A stretch of 64,000 nt of DNA from Blastococcus tunisiensis (GTDB lineage Bacteria; Actinomycetota; Actinomycetes; Mycobacteriales; Geodermatophilaceae), in NCBI RefSeq assembly GCF_900112815.1, contig NZ_FOND01000010.1:1-64000 (forward strand). Reading direction: 5' to 3'. Below, one piece after another: positions 44,941 through 46,656 of this stretch. The first letter of the stretch is position 1. Every line of letters starts with the position of its first letter. The translations under genes were made by a program, and so were the position numbers. The notes beneath the pieces are model-generated. The model worked only from the letters and a program-made list of their open reading frames with translations, did no database searches and was not told the DNA's origin.

Positions 44941-45576
44941 ATGACCCGCACGACCGCACGCCTGGCCGGCGCCCTCGTCGCCGGCACCCTCGTCCTCGCC
45001 GGCTGCTCCGGCGACGACCGCCCCCGCAGCAGCATGGACGGCTCCATGATGGGCGGCTCGGAACGCGCGCCGTCCACCGGCCAGCCGGAGGACGGCGCCA
45101 CGTTCAACGACGTCGACGTCACCTTCGCCCGGGACATGGTCCCGCACCACCGGCAGGCGATCGGAATGGCGCGGCTCGCGGAGGGACGGGCCGCGGACCC
45201 CCGCGTCCTCGACCTCGCCGACCGCATCGAGGCGGCCCAGGAGCCGGAGATCGGCATCCTCACCGGCCTGCTCGCGGAGTGGGGCGCGGGCGGCGGCGGA
45301 GGTCACATGGGCGGGGGCATGGGGCATCCCGGGGACGATCCCGGCGGGATGATGTCGCCGGAGGACATGCACGGCCTGATGGCCGCCTCGGGTGCCGAGT
45401 TCGACCGGCTGTTCCTGGAGCAGATGATCGACCACCACTCCGGCGCCGTCAGGATGGCCGAGACGGTGCTCTCCGACGGCCGCAACACCGAGCTGAGCGG
45501 GCTCGCCGAGACCATCCGGGACGCTCAGACGGCCGAGATCGCGGAGATGGAGCAGCTCCTCACCGAGCTCGGGTGA
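44941..45576 (+). CDS. DUF305 lipoprotein, His/Met-rich
   Basis: This 211-residue lipoprotein has the signal peptide ending LVLAGC (Cys22 is the lipidated residue), so it is anchored outside the membrane. Two DUF305 repeats, FARDMVPHHRQAIGMARLA and FLEQMIDHHSGAVRMAETVL, each carry the HH pair of the family. A Met/His/Gly-rich segment lies between them (GGGGHMGGGMGHPGDDPGGM). DUF305 proteins are often found near copper-resistance genes and are thought to bind copper outside the cell. It follows DUF6153, and the MerR-type gene follows after a separate promoter. Confidence 0.85.
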   Translation: MTRTTARLAGALVAGTLVLAGCSGDDRPRSSMDGSMMGGSERAPSTGQPEDGATFNDVDVTFARDMVPHHRQAIGMARLAEGRAADPRVLDLADRIEAAQEPEIGILTGLLAEWGAGGGGGHMGGGMGHPGDDPGGMMSPEDMHGLMAASGAEFDRLFLEQMIDHHSGAVRMAETVLSDGRNTELSGLAETIRDAQTAEIAEMEQLLTELG

Positions 45577-45595: not shown

Positions 45596-45626
45596 TTGAC
45601 TCTCGACCTGGTCGAGGCCGGAGGGT
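45596..45626 (+). promoter_or_regulatory. MerR-type autoregulated promoter
   Basis: TTGACT (45596-45601) and GAGGGT (45621-45626) are separated by 19 bp. The spacer carries a perfect dyad CTCGAC-CTG-GTCGAG (45602-45616). A long 19-bp spacer with a central palindrome is the hallmark of promoters that MerR proteins twist into activity. The MerR gene starts 19 bases after the -10, so autoregulation is expected. Confidence 0.7.
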
Positions 45627-45645
45627 CGTCGGTGTGGAGGAACGC

Positions 45646-46656
45646 GTGCGCGGGATCGGTCGGATGGCCCGGGAGACCGGGCTGACCGTCAGCGCGCTGC
45701 GGTTCTACGACGGCGCCGGGATCCTCGTGCCGGCCCGCGTGGACCCGCACAGCGGCTACCGCTGGTACGGCGACGACCAGGTCGCCCCCGCCCGGCTCGT
45801 CGCCCGGCTGCGGCGGGTCGGCCTGCCGCTCGCCGACATCCGCCGGGTGCTCGAGCACCGTCGGGACCCCGCGGTGGTGGACGAGATCCTCGGGGCGCAC
45901 CTGGTGCGCCTCGAGGACGGCCTGGCCGACGCCCGCCGCGAGCTCTCCGCAGCCCGAGCCCTACTCGACCTGGAGCTGCCCGTGCCCACCGTCCTGCGCA
46001 CCACCACCACCGAGCTGGCCGCCGCCCTGCGCGCCGTCCGCTACGCCGTCGGCGCCGATCCCGGGCTGCCGATGCTCACCGGCGTCCTGCTGGACGTCGA
46101 TGACGACGCCGTCCGGCTGGCGGCGACCGACCGGTACCGGCTCGCCGTCGCTACGCTCCCCGACGCGTCGGTCACCGGTCCGGCGTGCAGCGCCCTCCTC
46201 CCGGTCGACCTGGCCGACGAGGTGCTGGCCGCGCTCGGCACGGACGGATCCGTCACGGTCGCCGTCGACGGCCCGGTGATCACCGTCGAGCTCCCCGGGG
46301 GCACCGTGCGGGGGCGACGGCTGGACCACGACTTCCCCGACTACCGGCGGATCCTGCGCCCGAGCAGCGCGCACCGCATCGACACGGACGCCGCCGAGCT
46401 CCGGGCCGCGCTGGAGGCAGCGCCCACCCGCACGGTGCCGCACGGACCGGACGGAGCGGAGCAGACCGCCAGCGTGCTGAGCCTGGGCGAGGTGGAGATC
46501 GGCGTGAACCGCGAGTTCCTGCTGGAGGCGCTGGACGCCGGGGCCGCCGGGCAGCTGGTGCTCGAGCTCGACGGGCCGATCACCCCGCTGGCACTCCGTG
46601 ACCCCGCGCGCCCGGGGAACGTCAGCATGCTGATGCCCGTCCGCCTGCCCGCGTGA
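45646..46656 (+). CDS. MerR-family regulator fused to DNA sliding-clamp (DnaN) domains
   Basis: The product is 336 residues. Residues 1-70 are a MerR winged helix domain (IGRMARETGLTVSALRFYDG, GYRWYGDDQV). Residues 75-110 form the dimerisation helix. The rest (about 119-336) matches domains 2 and 3 of the DNA polymerase III beta clamp: LPMLTGVLLDVDDDAVRLAA, TDRYRLAVATLP, the interdomain segment DFPDYRRILRPSS, VNREFLLEALDAGAAGQLVL and the end MLMPVRLP. Clamp domain 1 is missing, so it cannot be the replicative clamp. In classical MerR proteins this position holds a drug- or metal-binding domain. GTG 45646 was chosen because GGAGG lies five bases upstream. A MerR-type promoter lies at 45596-45626. 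Confidence 0.9.
   Translation: MRGIGRMARETGLTVSALRFYDGAGILVPARVDPHSGYRWYGDDQVAPARLVARLRRVGLPLADIRRVLEHRRDPAVVDEILGAHLVRLEDGLADARRELSAARALLDLELPVPTVLRTTTTELAAALRAVRYAVGADPGLPMLTGVLLDVDDDAVRLAATDRYRLAVATLPDASVTGPACSALLPVDLADEVLAALGTDGSVTVAVDGPVITVELPGGTVRGRRLDHDFPDYRRILRPSSAHRIDTDAAELRAALEAAPTRTVPHGPDGAEQTASVLSLGEVEIGVNREFLLEALDAGAAGQLVLELDGPITPLALRDPARPGNVSMLMPVRLPA

Follow-up and report, generated by a model that had tools for sequence, protein, structure and literature searches.

The stretch from 45646 to 46656 of the window (the whole 64,000-nucleotide stretch of Blastococcus tunisiensis DNA analysed here) is one intact gene, in which a MerR DNA-binding domain is joined to domains 2 and 3 of the sliding clamp DnaN. 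The clamp part has kept its ligand pocket and lost its ring interface, a conserved operator has its good matches, in the genomes scanned, at the gene's own promoter alone, and a conserved internal ribosome-binding site and start codon lie at the junction of the two parts. We lean, though not firmly, towards reading it as a self-inducing ligand-capture gene of the TipA/AlbA type, in which a mimic of the replication clamp serves as a decoy ligand domain. The gene and its domains are arranged as follows.

45636..45639, + strand: Shine-Dalgarno GGAG of the outer start, from ortholog comparison
45646..46656, + strand: coding sequence of the MerR-clamp regulator, 336 aa, GTG start
45655..45855, + strand: MerR winged helix-turn-helix domain, residues 4-70, PF13411 (MerR_1), E 2e-13
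45868..45969, + strand: long dimerisation helix, from the predicted structure
46006..46341, + strand: clamp domain 2, residues 121-232, PF02767 (DNA_pol3_beta_2), E 1e-13, and fold match
46396..46653, + strand: shortened clamp domain 3, about residues 251-336, from Pfam scan, family profile and fold match

The original prediction had described this open reading frame as a MerR protein fused to DnaN domains 2-3 without domain 1. The frame, its coordinates and all motifs quoted for it are present, and Pfam, profile and model agree. The N-terminal winged helix-turn-helix is followed in the model by the dimerisation helix, as in MerR proteins, and clamp domain 1 is absent. The objection that DnaN similarity might prove insignificant fails on the domain 2 match and on a profile of 21 orthologs, which extends over domains 2 and 3 of the clamp with E values as low as 9e-35; in the single-sequence Pfam scan, DNA_pol3_beta_3 at residues 281-333 gave E 0.004, below the cut-off. 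A frameshift or chimera joining two separate genes is ruled out as well, because dozens of independent genomes carry this fusion as an uninterrupted, full-length frame. Residues 118-339 of the AlphaFold2 model (mean pLDDT 79) fit beta clamps at Z 21-23, with an rmsd of about 2.5 A. The fold matches include clamps bound to griselimycin (5ah2, 6ptv) and to mycoplanecin (8ciz), and the complex of a clamp with the phage protein Gp168 (7evp). A separate and complete canonical DnaN is present elsewhere in the same genome.

The outer start at GTG 45646 is supported by the upstream GGAG (45636-45639), followed by a start codon at Shine-Dalgarno-like spacing in 43 of 44 orthologs. GTG 45634 was considered as a leaderless start and ruled out, since the GTGGAG found there is the Shine-Dalgarno sequence of the 45646 start. 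Metal sensing was also rejected, as the invariant columns contain no cysteine. The gene immediately upstream (window 44950-45575) encodes a DUF305 protein (E 2e-48), and no such gene adjoins the MerR-clamp gene at the other loci that were compared.

We took 18 pocket and seven dimer-interface residues from a review (PMC11139829) and aligned domains 2-3 of the fused proteins to E. coli DnaN and to the canonical clamps encoded by genomes of the same group. In the subfamily to which the window's protein belongs (subfamily A), identity to canonical actinobacterial DnaN is 74% over the 18 pocket residues, 24% over other columns and 1% at the interface. At columns invariant in canonical clamps the figures are 93% for the pocket, 32% elsewhere and 0% for the interface (p 6e-5). 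Two further subfamilies, B and C, likewise keep the pocket and lose the interface. The interface region corresponding to E. coli 299-306 and the I272/L273 core are deleted or replaced in the fused proteins, with exact gap placement around the interface varying between alignments. Four pocket segments can be located in the window by alignment to DnaN.

46066..46083, + strand: pocket segment LPMLTG
46126..46143, + strand: pocket segment TDRYRL
46330..46350, + strand: pocket segment DFPDYRR
46630..46647, + strand: C-terminal pocket segment LMPVRL

Measured against DnaN, the fused protein shares the domain 2-3 fold and the peptide and griselimycin pocket between these domains. It lacks domain 1, the head-to-tail ring interface and part of domain 3, has gained a DNA-binding domain, and forms no canonical ring. 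Since the pocket is kept and the interface lost, clamp domains 2-3 can probably bind clamp ligands yet cannot close the usual ring. The suggestion that the two clamp halves of a dimer might pair in a ring-like manner is thus unlikely, the interface for it being deleted. In contrast, the idea that the clamp pocket acts as a sensor is strongly supported by its selective retention. The P and R of E. coli pocket positions P242 and R246 are retained in the fused protein, whereas the hosts' own canonical DnaN in Geodermatophilaceae (L089-L095) has V and A there.

The region 45596-45626, singled out in the original prediction as possible target DNA of the regulator, proved to be a real and deeply conserved MerR promoter/operator with these elements.

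45596..45601, + strand: -35 element TTGACT, conserved in nearly all orthologs
45602..45616, + strand: MerR operator palindrome CTCGACC-T-GGTCGAG, lying within the 19-bp spacer; conservation extends from Blastococcus to Streptomyces
45621..45626, + strand: -10 element GAGGGT (CAGAGT in Streptomyces), assigned by its spacing of 19 bp past the -35

The over-long 19-bp spacer and the palindrome within it, both conserved upstream of orthologs, are what would be expected of a MerR-controlled promoter, where -35 and -10 stand 19-20 bp apart. We scanned 13 genomes for the operator (seven Geodermatophilaceae, five Streptomyces and the divergent G051), allowing at most three mismatches on a 22-23-base pattern, so that diverged sites could escape. 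Good matches occurred solely before the MerR-clamp gene in 12 of the 13 genomes, and G051 gave none. Streptomyces griseosporeus has two copies of the gene and two operator sites. A wider regulon was considered and rejected: the remaining matches carry two or three mismatches and nearly all are without an intact TTGAC -35 element. Because good matches are confined to its own gene, the regulator probably controls only itself, a one-gene regulon predicted from operator sequences. For the same reason the proposed link of the sensor to replication or repair state is unsupported, with no such regulon visible. The promoters of subfamilies B and C differ from this one but are likewise conserved and palindromic, again with a 19-bp spacer.

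The junction between the MerR and clamp parts reads GGAG-N6-GTG (window 45972-45984), and we predict that it directs a second product.

45943..45948, + strand: CTCTCC, predicted hairpin partner of the internal Shine-Dalgarno sequence, modest support
45972..45975, + strand: internal Shine-Dalgarno GGAG, in 44/44 orthologs plus 41/41 new ones
45982..46656, + strand: predicted second product, clamp domains 2-3 alone, 224 aa, from internal GTG; start codon ATG, GTG or TTG in 85/85 orthologs

Among 44 distinct orthologs the internal start column holds 39 ATG, four GTG and one TTG, and GGAG precedes it in every one. The base before GAG is always G, whichever of R, Q, L, K, E or T is specified by the codon that it closes; the rare arginine codon AGG stands at this site in 23 of the 44, against 3.8% of arginine codons overall. 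A second set of orthologs, not used in the discovery and searched over a 45-codon stretch with spacings of 5-9 nt allowed, has GGAG and a start codon in 41 of 41 (N6 in 38, N9 in three), and it keeps the signal despite changes in linker length. The orthologs are related by descent, so that 44/44 and 41/41 do not count independent events. Apart from this site, the gene's own start is the one alignment column where nearly all sequences show the signal, and in the model the internal start falls just ahead of the first strand of the clamp fold. A conserved ribosome-binding site with a start codon is the expected trace of selection for internal initiation, and if it is used the likely function shifts from a sensor only to a sensor plus a free clamp fragment. 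Initiation at the internal start may be infrequent, as its Shine-Dalgarno sequence is predicted to lie inside a hairpin; support for this hairpin is modest (z about -1, one covarying pair). The rare codons CGA and CTA recur across orthologs 20-30 nt ahead of the internal start (window 45915-45975), a conservation that the hairpin explains only in part.

Full-length fused orthologs (43-81% identity) occur in Geodermatophilaceae including Blastococcus, in Streptomyces and in some other actinobacteria. The distribution is patchy: matches were found in 13 of 61 relatives, some of them partial, and in seven of 396 genomes sampled across the phylum, while at least one subfamily is represented in 130 of 296 sampled Streptomyces genomes (44%). 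Of these Streptomyces matches, about 75 belong to subfamily A, the remainder being more divergent; subfamilies B and C were assigned from the 20 divergent Streptomyces sequences read (L151-L170), which split into these two. The three subfamilies and canonical DnaN form separate groups in a tree built from the clamp domains, whose long branches and rooting are compatible with one or two fusion events. The PLSDB gene table labels three plasmid copies merely as MerR regulators. Phage records gave no match, and a phage origin was dropped. One Streptomyces copy is decayed, its MerR part broken and its clamp part still readable. In another MerR protein, related to this one with 44% identity over residues 3-115, the C-terminal domain is different and apparently helical; the ligand domain may thus be swapped among close MerR relatives.

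No neighbouring gene is conserved between genera, and within Blastococcus only the downstream, acyl-CoA dehydrogenase side is common, so gene neighbourhood was dropped as a clue to function. Among the B and C loci, a tetratricopeptide-like gene follows on the same strand in seven of 20. The patchy spread and the lack of a conserved neighbour would fit a stand-alone resistance gene.

Known systems suggest how such a gene might work. TipA and AlbA each make two in-frame products from one gene and sequester drugs, and drug binding to TipA raises its own expression (PMC7762955, PMC6078987). TipA of Streptomyces lividans (TipAL/TipAS) and AlbA of Klebsiella oxytoca (AlbAL/AlbAS) combine a MerR domain with a ligand domain and control their own promoter, and at the sequence level the gene described here does the same, with its operator at its own promoter. 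An internal in-frame start for the lone ligand domain is described for TipA and predicted here. TipAS and AlbAS are all-helical drug-binding domains, whereas the ligand domain here is sliding-clamp domains 2-3, with a clamp ligand that we infer from the pocket; a Pfam scan of the MerR-clamp protein gave no match to the TipAS domain (PF07739). The gene may therefore be TipA-like in its working, yet it stands outside the TipA family. BmrR and other MerR multidrug regulators also have a MerR domain and a C-terminal ligand domain; that of BmrR is GyrI-like, while that of the MerR-clamp protein derives from the drug target itself.

Natural ligands for such a pocket exist. Griselimycin and mycoplanecin, both actinomycete products, bind the clamp pocket, and extra dnaN copies in their producers, griR and mypR, have been linked to self-resistance (PMC10817943). 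GriR and MypR resemble the MerR-clamp protein in being an additional copy of the clamp pocket tied to coping with clamp inhibitors. They are described as second DnaN genes inside producer clusters, whereas the MerR-clamp protein is a regulator with a clamp fragment, and the neighbourhoods compared revealed no linkage to a clamp-inhibitor gene cluster.

The TipA/AlbA-like logic, the binding of these compounds to the pocket and the extra dnaN genes together lead us to favour the clamp decoy. We propose that a MerR dimer would occupy its own promoter with the 19-bp spacer. When a ligand fills the domain 2-3 pocket, the dimer would switch on its own transcription. The ligand would most likely be a natural product aimed at the clamp, of the kind of griselimycin or mycoplanecin; failing that, it might be a phage protein or a peptide that binds the clamp. 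The resulting mRNA would be translated from two starts, GTG 45646 giving the regulator and GTG 45982 giving free, monomeric clamp domains 2-3. These would mop up the ligand and spare the real DnaN. Several points count against the decoy. Free clamp domains 2-3 could titrate host polymerases, which would be costly if they were made without ligand, and 44% of sampled Streptomyces seems frequent for resistance to compounds known from few producers. The possibly weak use of the internal start, its lack of conservation in subfamilies B and C and the missing linkage to an inhibitor cluster weigh on the same side.

An unlikely, though not negligible, alternative is that the pocket senses clamp-binding proteins (host repair or translesion proteins, or a phage protein that attacks the clamp) and that the free fragment is a decoy for them. 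All known clamp partners bind this one pocket (PMC11139829), and the Gp168 complex is among the fold matches. However, constitutive host partners would fill the pocket permanently, and no operator was found before repair genes in the genomes scanned; that phage records hold no relative of the protein also counts a little against it, though it says nothing on phage ligands. With its intact pocket and lost interface, the fragment could also bind partners without encircling DNA. It might then vie with the clamp for polymerases and hold back replication under some condition that the MerR part senses, a replication brake that we regard as very improbable: it leaves unexplained both the control of nothing but its own promoter and the use of a clamp pocket as sensor.

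The internal start might, on the other hand, be left over from two ancestral genes that read-through joined, only the fused regulator being made. It sits exactly at the domain junction, and no internal start is conserved among the 20 sequences of subfamilies B and C. Still, its retention in 85 of 85 orthologs, GTG and TTG included, the third-base G across six amino acids and its persistence through linker-length changes argue for present selection, and we consider a relic quite improbable.

We found no description of MerR-clamp fusions in the open-access literature (PMC), the scope of our search. Beyond the fusion itself, this analysis adds the selective conservation of the pocket, the internal start, the promoter confined to one gene and the two further subfamilies. 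No earlier transcriptional sensor based on a sliding clamp is known to us, and the MerR-clamp protein, if our reading is true, would be the first described. It is tempting to go further and see here a family of transcription factors that use a drug-target decoy as sensor, a self-inducing clamp sponge with its own internal start that protects actinobacteria from clamp-targeting antibiotics; this we hold tentatively, as a real possibility that falls just short of our endorsement. DnaN inhibitors are a class under study against tuberculosis. If our assumptions are true, the gene would offer a ready biosensor for new ones and would show that natural tolerance to them already exists. A transcription factor would then have taken its sensor domain from the replication clamp, clamp inhibitors would probably be common in soil, and the wide spread of the family among the Streptomyces sampled would mark the pressure exerted by clamp-binding molecules.
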